Shown: piece by piece, positions 1 through 44,726 of the stretch
How positions within the stretch are numbered: the first letter of the stretch is position 1
How the letters are laid out: the number at the start of each line of letters is the position of its first letter
Assembly (NCBI GenBank): GCA_026393755.1
Contig: JAPKZO010000002.1
Location: forward strand, 1-64,000
Origin: Acidobacteriota bacterium
Lineage (GTDB): Bacteria; Acidobacteriota; Vicinamibacteria; Vicinamibacterales; JAKQTR01
Reading direction: 5' to 3'
DNA: 64,000 nt
Position numbers and translations under genes: made by a program
The notes under the pieces: generated by a model
The model's database searches: none
Seen by the model: the letters and a program-made list of their open reading frames with translations, nothing else
What the model was told of the DNA's origin: nothing

Positions 1-480
1 CGCGCGCAACGCCCACACCGGCCCGTGCAGTGCCGCCGCACCGATCACGAGCGCCGTGCGCACCGTCTCCTGCGCCGCGCGCACCGTCCCGCGTGCCGCT
101 CGCGTCAGGCCGCCGAGTGTCGCCTCGTCGAACGTGCGTCCCGTGCGCCCGATCGCGCGCAACGCCCACACCGGCCCGTGCAGTGCCACCGCACCGATCA
201 CGAGCGCCGTGCGCACCGTCTCCTGCGCCGCGCGCACCGTCCCGCGTGCCGCTCGCGTCAGGCCGCCGAGTGTCGCCCGGCCGACCGTGCTTCCCGTGCG
301 CCCGATCGCGCGCAACGCCCACACCGGCCCGTGCAGTGCCGCCGCACCGATCACGAGCGCCGTGCGCACCGTCTCCTGCGCCGCGCGCACCGTCCCGCGT
401 GCCGCGCGCGTCAGCCCGCCGAGTGTCGCCCGGCCGACCGTGCCGCCCGTGCGCCCGATCGCGCGCAACACCCACGCCGG
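1..480. repeat. 153-bp in-frame tandem repeat array, three full copies plus a partial
   Basis: Copies begin at 1, 154, 307 and 460 with an exact period of 153 bp (51 codons) and differ by only a handful of substitutions, mostly near the end of each unit. The array lies in the minus-strand pseudokinase-like gene. It encodes an Ala/Arg/Thr-rich helical unit containing TRAARGTVRAAQETVRTAL, then a hydrophobic stretch ALHGPVWALRAIG. It is cut by the window edge, so the true copy number is unknown. Confidence 0.93.
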
Positions 481-1791
481 CGTGCGACTCCGTTCGAGCG
501 AGGTTCGCTCGGCCCGCTGCGCCGTCACAACCGACCACCTTATCGCAGCCTCACGGAGCTGGATCACTATCTCCTCATCACGGAGCCGGCTCACCTCCTC
601 GGGCTGCGGCTCGCGTAGAACCGGCGTCACCCACGGCTGGTTCACTGGCTCGTCTGCCCTCACTGGCTCGGCGGCCCATTGTGGCAAGAGCGACTCGGGC
701 GGCGGCGTGATTCGGGGAAGGGGATCCGGCGCGACCGTTCCAGGGTTCTTCGTCTCACAACCCTCGCCGGTTGTAAGCGGCAGCAGCTCGCGCGGCGGGA
801 TTTCGGCGTCGCTGCGCGGTCCCACACAGTCAGTGGTCGATCCGGTCTCGTCGTGTCCGTCCATCCGAGCACGATCGGAGGCATCAACCAGCGACTTGAT
901 CGGATTCTCGCCCGACGCGGGCCGGCGCCGCTTCGACAACGCCTCCTCGAACGCCATCTGCGCGTCGCACACCGCCGAAAATCGGGTCCGGGTCTCGACC
1001 TGGAGCGCGGTCCTGAGCCATGCATTCAGTGCCTTGGAAATCGGGACGCGCGCATCGCCTCCGTCGGTCATCATCAACGACTCAATCAGGCTCAAGAGTC
1101 GTTCCGGGTATTCATTGGCCTCGAGTGGCCGGCCCGCGAGCAGCGCCACCGCGACAAGGCCGGTCTGCGCGATGTCAGCCTGCTGATCGAGACGGGGAAC
1201 ATCCGAGCCGGGAACCACAGGAATCCGGAACTCGTTCCACAGCTTGGCTCGAGAGTAGCTGAGACGCTCGAGCGCGAGACCCAGGGCACAGTCCGCAACG
1301 ACTAGATGACCTCTGGGTGTCACGATGAGGCGTTCGGGAGCAATCAAACCATGCGTCACGGCTCGCGTCTGGTGGAGCGCCGCAAGCGCTCCGAGGAGTT
1401 GACGCACAACGTGAAGAGCCGCGTCTGTGGGAACGACGGCGCGGCCGTCACCGGCGGCCTGGAGGATGTCAGACAGCCGGGTGCCCGGGATGTAGTCCGA
1501 GACGATCTCGAAACCGAAGGGATCGTCGGGAGCTTCGGCGGCGCTACGCACAGGCACGAAGCGCGCGAGGCGCAGTGTCGCCAGGCGAGCGACCCGCTCA
1601 CGGATCGCAGCCCGCATCGTGGAGAGGTCACGGCACAACAAAAGCACCTCGACCGTGTCGCCGGCTGCGACAGTCCGGGTCGATCGCTCACCCAGGCGGT
1701 CGCGGAAGTGACAAAACTGCTCGGCCGGAAGGGCTCGCAATCTGGACATGCGCCCAGGTACGTGCAACAAACGGGCCGGCCGCGCTGCCAC
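1..1791 (-). CDS. Partial pseudokinase-like protein with C-terminal 51-residue tandem repeats
   Basis: The frame stays open to the left window edge, so the C-terminus is missing; 597 codons are visible. Residues ~55-240 resemble a Hanks-type Ser/Thr kinase: a hinge-like stretch FEIVSDYIPGTRLSDIL, an alpha-E-like helix LLGALAALH, then THGLIAPERLIV where HRDxxxxN is expected (H147, G148, L149, R154) and VADCALG where DFG is expected (D167, C168, A169). The catalytic Asp and Asn are absent, and I see no VAIK lysine or Gly-rich loop, so I infer a dead kinase. A Pro/Glu-rich linker follows (about residues 290-420), then 51-residue repeats from about residue 438 onward. The GTG start has GAGG six bases upstream; the alternative is ATG at 1749, 14 codons later. 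Role unknown; a scaffold or signal-binding protein is a guess. Confidence 0.72.
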   Translation of the reverse strand, partial: MAARPARLLHVPGRMSRLRALPAEQFCHFRDRLGERSTRTVAAGDTVEVLLLCRDLSTMRAAIRERVARLATLRLARFVPVRSAAEAPDDPFGFEIVSDYIPGTRLSDILQAAGDGRAVVPTDAALHVVRQLLGALAALHQTRAVTHGLIAPERLIVTPRGHLVVADCALGLALERLSYSRAKLWNEFRIPVVPGSDVPRLDQQADIAQTGLVAVALLAGRPLEANEYPERLLSLIESLMMTDGGDARVPISKALNAWLRTALQVETRTRFSAVCDAQMAFEEALSKRRRPASGENPIKSLVDASDRARMDGHDETGSTTDCVGPRSDAEIPPRELLPLTTGEGCETKNPGTVAPDPLPRITPPPESLLPQWAAEPVRADEPVNQPWVTPVLREPQPEEVSRLRDEEIVIQLREAAIRWSVVTAQRAERTSLERSRTPAWVLRAIGRTGGTVGRATLGGLTRAARGTVRAAQETVRTALVIGAAALHGPVWALRAIGRTGSTVGRATLGGLTRAARGTVRAAQETVRTALVIGAVALHGPVWALRAIGRTGRTFDEATLGGLTRAARGTVRAAQETVRTALVIGAAALHGPVWALRA

Positions 1792-2111
1792 ACCTCACCT
1801 CACGTAATTACTGTTGTTGCAATAATTTACAGACACACAGGCGTGAGGCGCGCGACCTCCGTGTCGGCAGGTCGCATTCGATTGCGTTCGTCCGGTTCCG
1901 GAGTTGTCGCCGCCGCGTAACTCGCCCGCAGGCGCGCGCCCGTGACGACTCTTTTCGCACACATTCGCACACGCCTTCGTGGTCGAGTCCGCTTGAAGCC
2001 CGCCTCCGGTTGACGAAACGAGACGACCCCTCAAACAGGCGACGTCTGCGGCGTTCATTGACGACGCGTGCCGCATTGACGCCAACCAGCCAATCGCTTA
2101 CTGTCCGCGAC
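1792..2111. other. Divergent intergenic region
   Basis: This is the 320-bp gap between the pseudokinase-like gene (minus) and the M61 peptidase (plus). An AT-rich block at about 1803-1835, unusual for this genome, probably holds the minus-strand promoter, but I cannot fix its hexamers. A copy of an interspersed repeat lies at 1931-1973. I see no credible small gene. Confidence 0.5.
1931..1973. repeat. Interspersed repeat R, copy 1 (right half only)
   Basis: This segment matches the right-hand ~43 bp of the longer copies at 6521-6590 and 8631-8700, including the phrase TTCGCACAyATTCGCACACG. It lacks their left half with the GATCA-type dyad. It lies 139 bp upstream of the M61 peptidase start. 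Confidence 0.8.
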
Positions 2112-3923
2112 ATGATGATGACCATCACCCGTCGGATCGCACCTCTTCTGGTGGCGGTGCTGATTGCAGCGGCGCCATGCGCGCTCGGCCAGCCGGCGCC
2201 CGGCGTCATCGCGTTCACGATCTCCATGCCGCAGCCGTCGAACCACCTGTTTCACGTGACGCTCCGCGTAGCTGGTCTGACGGGCGAGCTCCAGGACGTC
2301 AAGATGCCGGCCTGGCATCCGGGCTACTACCGCATGATCGACTACGCCAAGAACGTGTCGGGCTTCCGAGCGCAGGATGGAGCGGGTCGGGCCCTGCCGT
2401 GGGAGAAAATCACAAAGAACACGTGGCGCGTCGCGACGGGCGGGGCGTCCACCCTGATTCTGAGCTACGACATTCTCGGGACGGTGACCTTCTCCGCGCA
2501 GAACTACCTGGGAGAGAGCCGGGCCTTCATCGCGCCGACAGGGATGTTCCTGCATCTTGCGGGACGGCTGCAGAGCGCCGCCACGGTGAGCATCCAGTTG
2601 CCGTTGGGGTGGACCAGGATCGCCACCGGGCTCAACCCGGTTCCGGGCAAAGCGAACATGTTCTCCGCGCCGGACTTCGACACGCTCTACGACTGCCCGA
2701 TGCTGATCGGCAACCAGGAGACGCTCGAATTCGACGTGCAGGGCAAGAGACATACCGTCGCAATCGAGCACATCCCGGCCAGCGTGGATCGCCCGAGAAT
2801 GCTCGCTGATCTGAAGAAATTGGTCGAGTCGGCGGCCACGCTCATGGGCGATCTTCCTTACACCAGCTACACATTCCTCATGATGGGCAACGGTCGCGGC
2901 GGCATCGAGCATGCGAATTCGTCGGCCAACTCGTTCAACGGCGACAGCCTTGCCGATGAAGGCGGCTATCGCCGCTGGTTGAGCTTCATCTGTCACGAGT
3001 ACTTCCATCACTACAACGTGAAGCGCATCAGGCCGATCGCCCTTGGGCCATTCGACTACGACACCGAGAACCTCACGGACATGCTGTGGGTGTCGGAGGG
3101 CCTCAGCGTCTACTACCAGGATCTGCTGCTCGTCCGCGCCGGTCTCCAGACCGCCGACCAGTACCTCGACAAGCTGGCCGGGGCTATCGATTCGTTCGAG
3201 AACGCCCCCGGGCACCACTATCAGTCCGCCACCGACTCGAGCATGACCACCTGGGGGACGTCGGGCGTCGGCAACGACCGCAACACCACGATCTCGTACT
3301 ACGACAACGGCGCCATGCTTGGCGCCATGCTGGATCTGGCGATCCGGCATGAAAGCGGAAACCGGAAGTCGCTCGACGATGTGATGCGGGCGCTCTACCG
3401 GAAGTACTACCAGCAGAAACGGCGCGGCTTCACAGACGACGAGTTCAGGCAGGAGTGCGAATCGGCGGCGGGCGCCAGTCTGACGGAGGTACTCGAGTAC
3501 GCGTCCACCACCAGGGACGTGGACTACGCGAAGTTCTTCGCCTACGCCGGCCTCGAGGTGACGGCGGTTTCCGAAGACGCGCCGGGCTCCTACCTCGGGC
3601 TCAACCTGCAGACACGCGAAGGGAAGCTGATGATCGTGGGCGCCAGCGCCGGGTCGCCGGCGGAGCGCGCCGGCCTTGCGGCCCAGGACCAGATACTGGA
3701 AGTAGATGGCACGCTTGCGACGCCAAAGGCGCTCAACGACGCGCTGTCGGCCCGGAAGCCCGGCGAAACGCTTACGTTGAAGGTCTCACGGGACAATGCC
3801 TCACTCGAGTCGAAGGTCACGCTGGCCGGCAACAGGAAGCAGGCGTTCACGCTCCGGCGGGTGGCCGCGCCGACGGCCCTGCAAGCCGCTATCTTCCCGG
3901 ACTGGCTGCGCGGCCTGCGGTAG
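2112..3923 (+). CDS. Secreted M61-family metallopeptidase with PDZ domain
   Basis: Predicted 603-residue exported zinc aminopeptidase of the M61 (glycyl aminopeptidase) family. An N-terminal signal peptide (arginines, then LLVAVLIAAAPCALGQ) leads to a beta-rich N-terminal domain. The catalytic domain carries HEYFH (H295, E296, H299), the HExxH zinc site, and WVSEGLSVYY with E329 as the likely third ligand. A PDZ-like domain lies at about residues 480-560 (SPAERAGLAAQDQILEVDG). Three consecutive ATG codons open the frame just before the signal peptide, so I start at the first; there is no clear Shine-Dalgarno. The frame is open far upstream, but that extension is shadow sequence. It stands alone, at the edge of the toxin-antitoxin island. 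Confidence 0.92.
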   Translation: MMMTITRRIAPLLVAVLIAAAPCALGQPAPGVIAFTISMPQPSNHLFHVTLRVAGLTGELQDVKMPAWHPGYYRMIDYAKNVSGFRAQDGAGRALPWEKITKNTWRVATGGASTLILSYDILGTVTFSAQNYLGESRAFIAPTGMFLHLAGRLQSAATVSIQLPLGWTRIATGLNPVPGKANMFSAPDFDTLYDCPMLIGNQETLEFDVQGKRHTVAIEHIPASVDRPRMLADLKKLVESAATLMGDLPYTSYTFLMMGNGRGGIEHANSSANSFNGDSLADEGGYRRWLSFICHEYFHHYNVKRIRPIALGPFDYDTENLTDMLWVSEGLSVYYQDLLLVRAGLQTADQYLDKLAGAIDSFENAPGHHYQSATDSSMTTWGTSGVGNDRNTTISYYDNGAMLGAMLDLAIRHESGNRKSLDDVMRALYRKYYQQKRRGFTDDEFRQECESAAGASLTEVLEYASTTRDVDYAKFFAYAGLEVTAVSEDAPGSYLGLNLQTREGKLMIVGASAGSPAERAGLAAQDQILEVDGTLATPKALNDALSARKPGETLTLKVSRDNASLESKVTLAGNRKQAFTLRRVAAPTALQAAIFPDWLRGLR

Positions 3924-42509: not shown

Positions 42510-44726
42510 GTGCTGCGCCTGATTCCGCTGCTGCCGTTTGTCGGGTTCCTGATCAACCTCTCGCTGGGCCGCCGCCTCTCGAAGAGGCTCTCGGGCGCTG
42601 TCGCGTGCCTCGCGATGTTCGGCGCGTTCCTCGCATCGGCATGGTCGGTCTGGACCCTCGTTCAGATGGCCCCCGATTCGCGTGGCATCGTCGATCGCGT
42701 GGCGCCGTGGATCGAATCCGGAGCTCTGTCGATTCCGTTTACGCTGCGCCTGGATCCGCTCGGCGCCGTCATGGTGCTGGTCGTGACCGGCATCGGTTTT
42801 CTGATTCACCTCTATTCGACCGCCTACATGCACGAGGAGCGCGCCAGCGAGTACGCGCGCTACTTCTCGTACCTCAATCTGTTCGCGGCATTCATGCTGG
42901 TGCTCGTGCTCGGCGCCAGCTTCCCGGTGATGTTCGTGGGCTGGGAGGGCGTGGGCCTCTGTTCGTACCTGCTGATTGGTTTCTGGTTTTCGAAGAAATC
43001 CGCGTCGGACGCAGGCAAGAAGGCGTTCATCGTCAATCGCGTCGGTGACTTCGGATTCCTGCTCGGCATGTTCATGATCTGGGTCCAGTTCGGCACGCTC
43101 GACTTTCAGGCCGTGGCCCACCAGGCGGGACAACTGCCGCCCGAGACGGTCTTCGGCACCCTGTCGATCGCCACGTTGCTGCTGTTTGTCGGCGCCGCAG
43201 GCAAGTCTGCCCAGATTCCCCTCTACGTCTGGCTGCCCGACGCGATGGAAGGCCCAACGCCGGTCTCCGCGCTCATCCACGCCGCGACGATGGTGACCGC
43301 GGGCGTGTACATGATCGGGCGCAATGCGGTGCTCTTCAGTCATGCGCCGGACACGATGGCGGTGGTCGCCGGTATCGGCGTCGCGACGGCGCTGATGGCG
43401 GGCACGATCGGGCTGGTGCAGAACGACATCAAGCGGGTGCTGGCCTACTCGACCGTATCTCAACTGGGGTTCATGTTCGTTGCCATGGGCGTCGGGGCGT
43501 TTGCGGCCGGTATCTTCCATCTCTTTACGCACGCGTTCTTCAAGGCGCTGTTGTTTCTGGGATCTGGCGCCGTGATTCATGCGCTTGCCGGCGAGCAGGA
43601 CATCCGGAAGATGGGCGGCCTGCGCCGGGAACTGCCAGTGACGTACTGGACGTTCCTGATCGGATCCGTGGCGATTGCCGGCGTGCCGTTTTTCTCCGGG
43701 TTCTTCAGCAAGGACGAGATTCTGTGGAAGGCGTTCTCGGGGGGCCACTACGCCGTGTGGACCGTGGCCGTCTTGACGTCGCTGCTGACGGCCACGTACA
43801 TGTTCCGCCTGGTGTTCCTCACATTTCATGGTTCGCGTGCCGTGACCGATTCCGGACACGGCTCGGCGAACCATGATCCCGCCGTAGCTGGCGCTCACGG
43901 TCATGGAGCCAGCGGAGGCGGACCACATGACGCCGGTAACCACTCCCACAACCAAGGTGGCGGCCGGCATCTCCACGACGCCCCGCCGGCGATGGCCATT
44001 GCGCTCATCCTGCTCGCGGTCGGCTCGGTCGTGGCCGGCTACATCGGATTCCCCAAGGTCCTCGGCGGCAGCAATCGCATCGAGCAATTCCTCGAGCCGA
44101 GCTTTGCCGTGCCGGGCATCGAAGCCGGCGGCGGCCTCGCCGAAGCGACGGGCACAGCGAGCGCAATCCCACCGGCCGAAGGCCACGCCGAAGCCCCCCC
44201 GACAGCGGGAGGCGCTGGTCACGCCGAAGCCCTTCGACCCTTCGACGGGCTCAGGGTCGTCCCGAGCAACGTCGAGGGGCGACAAGCTCAGGGCGAAGGC
44301 GGAAAGGCGGATGGTCCAGGCGCCACAGCGGAGGAGCATCGCGCCGAACTCTCCCTGATGGCGTTTTCGAGCGGGATCGCGATTGCAGGAATCGGTCTCG
44401 CCGGGTTCTTCTTCCTGCGCCGGCGTGACGTGACCGATCGCATCGCGGCGAACTTCGCCGGCATTCACCGCCTGCTGCTCAACAAGTACTACGTCGATGA
44501 GGCGTACGACGCGGTCATCGTGCAGCCGATCTTCCGCGTGTCGGAACGCGGCCTGTGGAAGATCGTGGATGCCGGCCTGATCGATGGCGCGGTCAATACG
44601 GCCGGCGCATCGGTGAGCGGATGGAGCGAAGTGCTGCGGCGGCTGCAAACGGGTTCGATTCGAGCGTATGCGCTCTCGATTGTCGTGGGCGTGGTTGTGA
44701 TTCTCGGATACTACGTATGGCGGTAG
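42510..44726 (+). CDS. nuoL: NADH-quinone oxidoreductase subunit L with enlarged hydrophilic loop
   Basis: This 738-residue proton-pumping subunit, longer than the usual ~610-680, has the antiporter core: FVGWEGVGLCSYLLIGFW, PTPVSALIHAATMVTAGVYM, VLAYSTVSQLGFMF and SKDEILWKAF. After residue ~440 it has a His/Gly-rich loop (GAHGHGASGGGPHDAGNHSH). At about residues 575-595 a palindromic interspersed repeat has been read in frame (RPFDGLRVVPSNVEG). GTG 42510 has GAGG six bases upstream. The C-terminal transverse helix and last helix (IVVGVVVILGYYVW) are intact. Confidence 0.93.
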   Translation: MLRLIPLLPFVGFLINLSLGRRLSKRLSGAVACLAMFGAFLASAWSVWTLVQMAPDSRGIVDRVAPWIESGALSIPFTLRLDPLGAVMVLVVTGIGFLIHLYSTAYMHEERASEYARYFSYLNLFAAFMLVLVLGASFPVMFVGWEGVGLCSYLLIGFWFSKKSASDAGKKAFIVNRVGDFGFLLGMFMIWVQFGTLDFQAVAHQAGQLPPETVFGTLSIATLLLFVGAAGKSAQIPLYVWLPDAMEGPTPVSALIHAATMVTAGVYMIGRNAVLFSHAPDTMAVVAGIGVATALMAGTIGLVQNDIKRVLAYSTVSQLGFMFVAMGVGAFAAGIFHLFTHAFFKALLFLGSGAVIHALAGEQDIRKMGGLRRELPVTYWTFLIGSVAIAGVPFFSGFFSKDEILWKAFSGGHYAVWTVAVLTSLLTATYMFRLVFLTFHGSRAVTDSGHGSANHDPAVAGAHGHGASGGGPHDAGNHSHNQGGGRHLHDAPPAMAIALILLAVGSVVAGYIGFPKVLGGSNRIEQFLEPSFAVPGIEAGGGLAEATGTASAIPPAEGHAEAPPTAGGAGHAEALRPFDGLRVVPSNVEGRQAQGEGGKADGPGATAEEHRAELSLMAFSSGIAIAGIGLAGFFFLRRRDVTDRIAANFAGIHRLLLNKYYVDEAYDAVIVQPIFRVSERGLWKIVDAGLIDGAVNTAGASVSGWSEVLRRLQTGSIRAYALSIVVGVVVILGYYVWR
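44239..44280. repeat. Palindromic repeat inserted in frame within nuoL
   Basis: CCCTTCGAC (44239-44247) and GTCGAGGGG (44272-44280) form inverted arms with one mismatch. GCTCAGGG occurs just inside the left arm and again after the right arm (44287-44294). It is a typical mobile palindrome, read here as coding sequence. Confidence 0.8.

Follow-up and report, generated by a model that had tools for sequence, protein, structure and literature searches.

What kind of protein joins a kinase-like domain devoid of catalytic residues to an array of near-identical Arg-rich repeats, and what could it do for the cell? The question is raised by a minus-strand frame (1791..1) of 597 codons, which is open and runs off the edge of contig C2 in an Acidobacteriota genome of 4.43 Mb in 42 contigs. 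The window, i.e., the whole stretch of DNA analyzed here, comprises bases 1-64000 of this contig. Chance is excluded as the origin of an open frame of this length at 69% GC, as none of 500 mononucleotide shuffles retained it. A preliminary description made from the window had regarded the frame as left-truncated, and indeed the remainder of the gene has to be looked for beyond the contig.

It can be found on another contig of this genome, C38, which opens with an exact copy of the last 55 bases of the frame (window bases 1-55 on the minus strand equal L024:1-55). Such an overlap is the signature of a graph assembler halted by a repeat, and the frame continues open across it. The C38 part encodes, in this order, further repeats, 21-bp units, one hydrophobic helix and PEGA domains, followed by two stops; the recovery of the gene, advised in the preliminary description, is thereby achieved. 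The array had been thought to end at ALHGPVWALRAIG; the contig merely stops there, and C38 carries the array on in frame. As assembled, the joined protein has about 1,007 residues, with a number of repeat units that is unfixed because the overlap 55-mer occurs once more inside C2. This second copy, together with a contig edge falling within a repeat, would also fit an assembly artefact in which the kinase half and the repeat/PEGA half stem from separate genes. Against this, among the contigs of the genome the repeat is carried by C2 and C38 only, the frame is preserved across the join, and homologues encode both halves in one frame, including those of the single-contig genomes G007 and G019. 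In G002 and G003, which belong to the same family as the window's genome, a head with 42-44% identity to that of the window and a tail with 58% identity to that of C38 are found within a single frame; the join is therefore very likely right. From these comparisons the two halves are very likely one gene, and an artefact appears scarcely credible. Translation probably does not start at the GTG of position 1791, since the homologues begin near an in-frame ATG at 1749. The features of the N-terminal half are listed in Table 1.

Table 1. Features of the pseudokinase gene lying within the window.
Feature	Position	Strand	Basis or remark
N-terminal 597 codons of the gene	1..1791	-	remainder on C38, L024:56-1288
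Probable ATG start codon (residue 15 in the GTG frame)	1747..1749	-	homologues begin at the matching place
Pseudokinase head (predicted fold)	856..1749	-	PDB profile match, AlphaFold2 model, Z to PknA
Leu50 at the beta3 Lys position	1642..1644	-	Lys in 0/32 homologues
HGLIAPER for HRDxKPxN, without catalytic Asp and without Asn	1330..1353	-	G148 in 32/32, R154 in 31/32
DCA in place of DFG	1285..1293	-	acidic residue kept in 32/32
Pro/Glu-rich low-complexity linker	460..855	-	sequence
51-residue repeat, copy 1	307..459	-	sequence, TRF
51-residue repeat, copy 2	154..306	-	sequence, TRF
51-residue repeat, copy 3	1..153	-	sequence, overlap with C38

The head is predicted to adopt the bilobal fold of eukaryotic-like protein kinases. 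Searched against the PDB, a profile built from 32 heads finds kinases of the PknB/PrkC type (E 1e-12). An AlphaFold2 model of the head, obtained from seven sequences (mean pLDDT 81.5, pTM 0.81), retrieves solved kinases throughout with Foldseek (E about 3e-11) and compares with PknA at a Z of 22.8 (3.2 A over 249 residues). Both a profile search with the kinase part and a structure prediction had been suggested as checks on the preliminary description, and each returned kinases. Regarding existing models, Pfam Pkinase (PF00069) scores 21.7 bits (E 1.5e-4), below its curated cut-off of 31.7. The NCBIfam model of the defence kinase MAD6 (NF047741) matches the kinase part only, with 38.9 bits vs a cut-off of 460; this weak match outscores that of Pfam Pkinase. 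A role in a defence system was considered and set aside, as just weak generic kinase matches (MAD6, PADLOC) were obtained and no defence gene was recognized among the genes that recur next to the homologues.

Residues were counted in 32 homologous heads aligned to PknB. The beta3 Lys, the HRD Asp and the catalytic-loop Asn are each found in none of the 32. Instead, the beta3 position holds Leu (26/32), Phe (5/32) or Thr (1/32), and Arg occupies the positions of both the alphaC Glu and the catalytic-loop Asn in 31 heads each. An HGxxxPER motif takes the place of the catalytic motif: at the HRD position, H147 is present in 29 heads and G148 in all, followed by A, L, C, T or S. The first residue of DFG is Glu in 19 heads and Asp in 13, Phe is never present at the second position and Gly is found at the third in three heads. 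The HGL and DCA previously read in place of HRD and DFG are confirmed at nt 1353-1345 and 1293-1285, and the pseudokinase assignment, first made from the missing Asp and Asn of one protein, is strengthened by their loss in every homologue aligned. As judged from the alignment, these changes are fixed across the homologues and not scattered, and the loss of the beta3 Lys together with the catalytic residues speaks against a conventional use of ATP. In the homologous pair L058/L131, dN/dS is 0.13 in the head and 0.11 in the membrane helix plus PEGA, against 0.52 in the linker. Given the low value for the head in this pair, the domain is, by these sequence criteria, a maintained pseudokinase.

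On C38, the repeats are followed by a predicted membrane helix, LVFAALLVIAVWPGMLLAT (mean hydropathy 2.34), and by a PEGA match (PF08308) of 58.6 bits vs a cut-off of 20.8, which lends support to the membrane scaffold envisaged earlier. We know of no established ligand of PEGA domains. One clear membrane segment after the linker is indicated by hydropathy in the joined protein and in 27 of 29 homologues; in the two exceptions, L042 and L044, the best-scoring hydrophobic segment lies within the linker. PEGA is found at E <= 0.001 in all 28 complete homologues scanned (L044, which has a masked stretch, was left out). On this comparative evidence, the order of head, linker, membrane helix and PEGA is that of a family conserved across Vicinamibacterales. 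In a sample of 396 genomes of the phylum, with the best five candidates per genome scored, 23 genomes give a match at E <= 1e-20, all of them in this order. Matches at E <= 0.001 are given by 43 of 60 relatives, the weakest of them resembling ordinary kinases, and G001, the other genome of the window's genus, shows no more than a weak kinase match. The earlier statement that no described family has this layout can be kept insofar as Pfam and NCBIfam have no model that names it, yet the protein is a member of an order-wide conserved family and not a one-off. Two tandem pseudokinase-PEGA paralogues, 107-155 bp apart, can also be found at L031:8570-12944.

About 36 neighbourhoods of homologues were compared. 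In ten of them, the same strand carries a gene for an M23 peptidase downstream, at a distance of a few bp to 4 kb and within about 160 bp in five of the ten; the homologues concerned come from families f2, f9, f11 and f15 and from one further MAG. In seven neighbourhoods, a gene for a TonB_C-domain protein is directly downstream, and L027 has both the M23 and the TonB_C genes. The M23 protein of L058 also carries a Csd3_N2 domain. Since DUF1015, SerA and SerC genes often come after, this pattern may in part reflect inherited gene order. In the window's genome, no M23 gene adjoins the pseudokinase gene, the nearest M23 relative being on C33 and unlinked, and the neighbours are M61 and S15 peptidases; the link with the wall hence rests on the homologues. 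The own-genome neighbours (M61, S15, AFOR) were considered as functional clues and discarded, as they are not recurrent near homologues. The adjoining M61 gene (window 2085-3923), transcribed divergently, encodes a glycyl aminopeptidase with a PDZ domain.

The linker and the 51-residue Arg/Ala/Thr repeats are as first described, TRF giving a 153-bp unit at 1-481 with 3.1 copies, 96% matches and a score of 878. They do not form a tail, however, but a clade-specific insert ahead of the membrane helix. The copies in the window share 95-97% DNA identity, and the expansion is therefore recent. Unit lengths stay in frame (51, 51, 51 and 93 residues, the last being 51 + 6x7), and the 21-bp (7-residue) units of C38 amount to 8.3 copies by TRF. 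A search with the repeat alone, as had been advised, finds the unit in the window's genome and in none of the 161 others among the 162 searched from the order. Within each unit, one stretch is amphipathic (hydrophobic moment up to 0.73) and another is hydrophobic, close to the usual membrane-helix threshold but mostly below it; the array carries a net charge of +26. Folding from the single sequence predicts the repeats to be helical with low confidence (pLDDT 61). In homologues, the stretch between head and membrane helix ranges from 71 to 1411 residues. At L050:4378-10383, L042:5080-9945 and L045:9330-14000, the linkers are very long (up to 1,411 residues) and rich in Ala, Glu, Val and Pro. 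At the position of the repeats, the linkers of most other homologues are rich in Pro or in acidic residues, and two relatives from the same family have different Arg/Ala/Gly-rich segments (Lys+Arg 0.14-0.16, acidic 0.01-0.03, Pro 0.03). Uniqueness is thus limited to the repeats, a local addition to a layout conserved across the order.

Different functions can be considered for this insert. A cytoplasmic, length-variable spacer at the membrane surface is the most likely one, the amphipathic and hydrophobic stretches suggesting that the units would bind there. A reading of the array as a near-neutral minisatellite that the linker tolerates, and whose sole contribution is length, has appreciable though less than even plausibility: the near-identity of the copies, the lack of the unit in the other genomes of the order, the relaxed dN/dS of the linker in the homologous pair and the wide range of linker lengths are all in its favour, while the in-frame unit lengths and the Arg/Ala-rich, Pro-poor segments that the two nearest relatives also have before the membrane helix are not. 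A nucleic-acid-binding or nucleoid-tethering segment would be in keeping with the positive charge; the hydrophobic and strongly amphipathic stretches of each unit are more typical of membrane contact and the segment sits directly ahead of the membrane helix, which makes this quite unlikely.

Regarding the whole protein, a non-catalytic pseudokinase scaffold or receptor linking the envelope to the control of wall remodelling is a proposal that we hold to be about evenly poised. It is favoured because the probable arrangement, with a dead kinase inside, PEGA outside and a single membrane helix, has its nearest working precedent in MviN. The MviN pseudokinase does not bind ATP; once PknB has phosphorylated its tail, it brings in FhaA and holds back peptidoglycan synthesis (PMC12599244). 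The protein whose N-terminal half is in the window would be a single-pass inner-membrane protein with a cytoplasmic head and with PEGA domains exposed at the membrane's outer face. The flexible linker and the clade's Arg-rich helical juxtamembrane segment would tie the head to the membrane helix, with cationic amphipathic stretches, alternating with hydrophobic ones, lying on the cytoplasmic membrane surface. Outside, PEGA may make contact with the wall or with some other component of the envelope, and the surface of the dead kinase may serve as a docking site for partners in the cytoplasm, perhaps a genuine Ser/Thr kinase or the substrates of such a kinase. As with mycobacterial MviN, the envelope would in this way be coupled to the control of wall remodelling. 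Could the head instead be divergent but active, or at least bind nucleotide, by means of alternative residues, as part of a receptor kinase with a PEGA sensor? An intact fold in the model and the acidic residue at the DFG-Asp position of all heads would agree with this, but the universal loss of the three catalytic residues and the Arg replacing the alphaC Glu render it improbable. The head could also be purely structural, an assembly platform without signalling, the PEGA and membrane parts providing the function. EssB/YukC, a membrane-bound pseudokinase that plays a structural part in a secretion apparatus, offers a precedent (PMC12599244, PMC9600267). The family resembles EssB/YukC of type VII secretion in its membrane anchoring and differs from it in its extracytoplasmic part and in that its recurrent neighbours include no identified secretion genes, and we regard a purely structural head as rather unlikely; the constraint on the head, about as tight as that on the PEGA part, is compatible with both structure and signalling.

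Returning to the proposed scaffold or receptor, the window protein and MviN (ActPs3) are alike in that each is a membrane protein combining a motif-degraded pseudokinase with an extracellular domain. MviN has a multi-pass part of the MurJ type as well as a carbohydrate-binding domain, whereas the window protein, from Acidobacteriota, has one membrane helix and PEGA; regulation of peptidoglycan synthesis is a property of MviN and for the window protein is only proposed. Of the ActPs3 features, the window family has the degraded catalytic motifs and the membrane helix after the kinase domain, but ActPs3 is primarily actinobacterial and the window family is from Vicinamibacterales. The GLW pseudokinases share the replaced HRD, the hydrophobic residue at the beta3 Lys position and a membrane helix C-terminal to the head; they are from Proteobacteria, unlike the acidobacterial window family with its H-G-[A/L/C] and PEGA tail, and at the site of their LLLL/W motif the window reads EVLLLC, with Leu at the Lys position in 26/32 homologues. 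The family is filed under neither GLW nor ActPs3 because its HRD replacement differs, although by analogy we favour a mode of action like that of MviN. Receptor Ser/Thr kinases of the PknB/PrkC type have a similar succession of kinase fold, linker, membrane helix and repeated small extracellular domains, with catalytic residues that the window protein lacks and PASTA instead of PEGA.

Bacterial pseudokinases are little studied. A literature search found no paper combining 'PEGA domain' with 'pseudokinase' and, judged by title, nothing on point for Acidobacteri and pseudokinase; a 2025 review makes no mention of Acidobacteriota or PEGA (PMC12599244). Proteins for which Pfam mostly provides no label but PEGA would gain a name through this family. 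As an order-wide family that is sometimes linked in the genome to a wall peptidase, it would offer a testable case of the use of a dead kinase in a Gram-negative envelope. More tentatively, and with considerable doubt, this Vicinamibacterales-specific receptor family may couple the cytoplasm to an M23 peptidoglycan peptidase and a TonB_C protein, one lineage having added membrane-binding repeat helices; if true, a dead kinase would here form the core of a system for envelope control in Gram-negative bacteria that has yet to be described.

The window's genome encodes a second kinase-like PEGA protein on C24 (L128:4051-6021, i.e., G000:C24:12050-14020). It likewise has a kinase-like head with HG for HRD, a Pro-rich linker, a hydrophobic segment and PEGA, but keeps the beta3 Lys (VAVK), lacks DFG and has one PEGA; its similarity to the window protein is distant (BLASTP 39.5%, E 3e-7). 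At a further locus, L129 (G000:C29:13864-14929), kinase and PEGA matches lie in different frames, perhaps in a frameshifted gene. Elsewhere in the window, a short 17-bp tandem repeat of 2.2 copies is found at 42678-42714.
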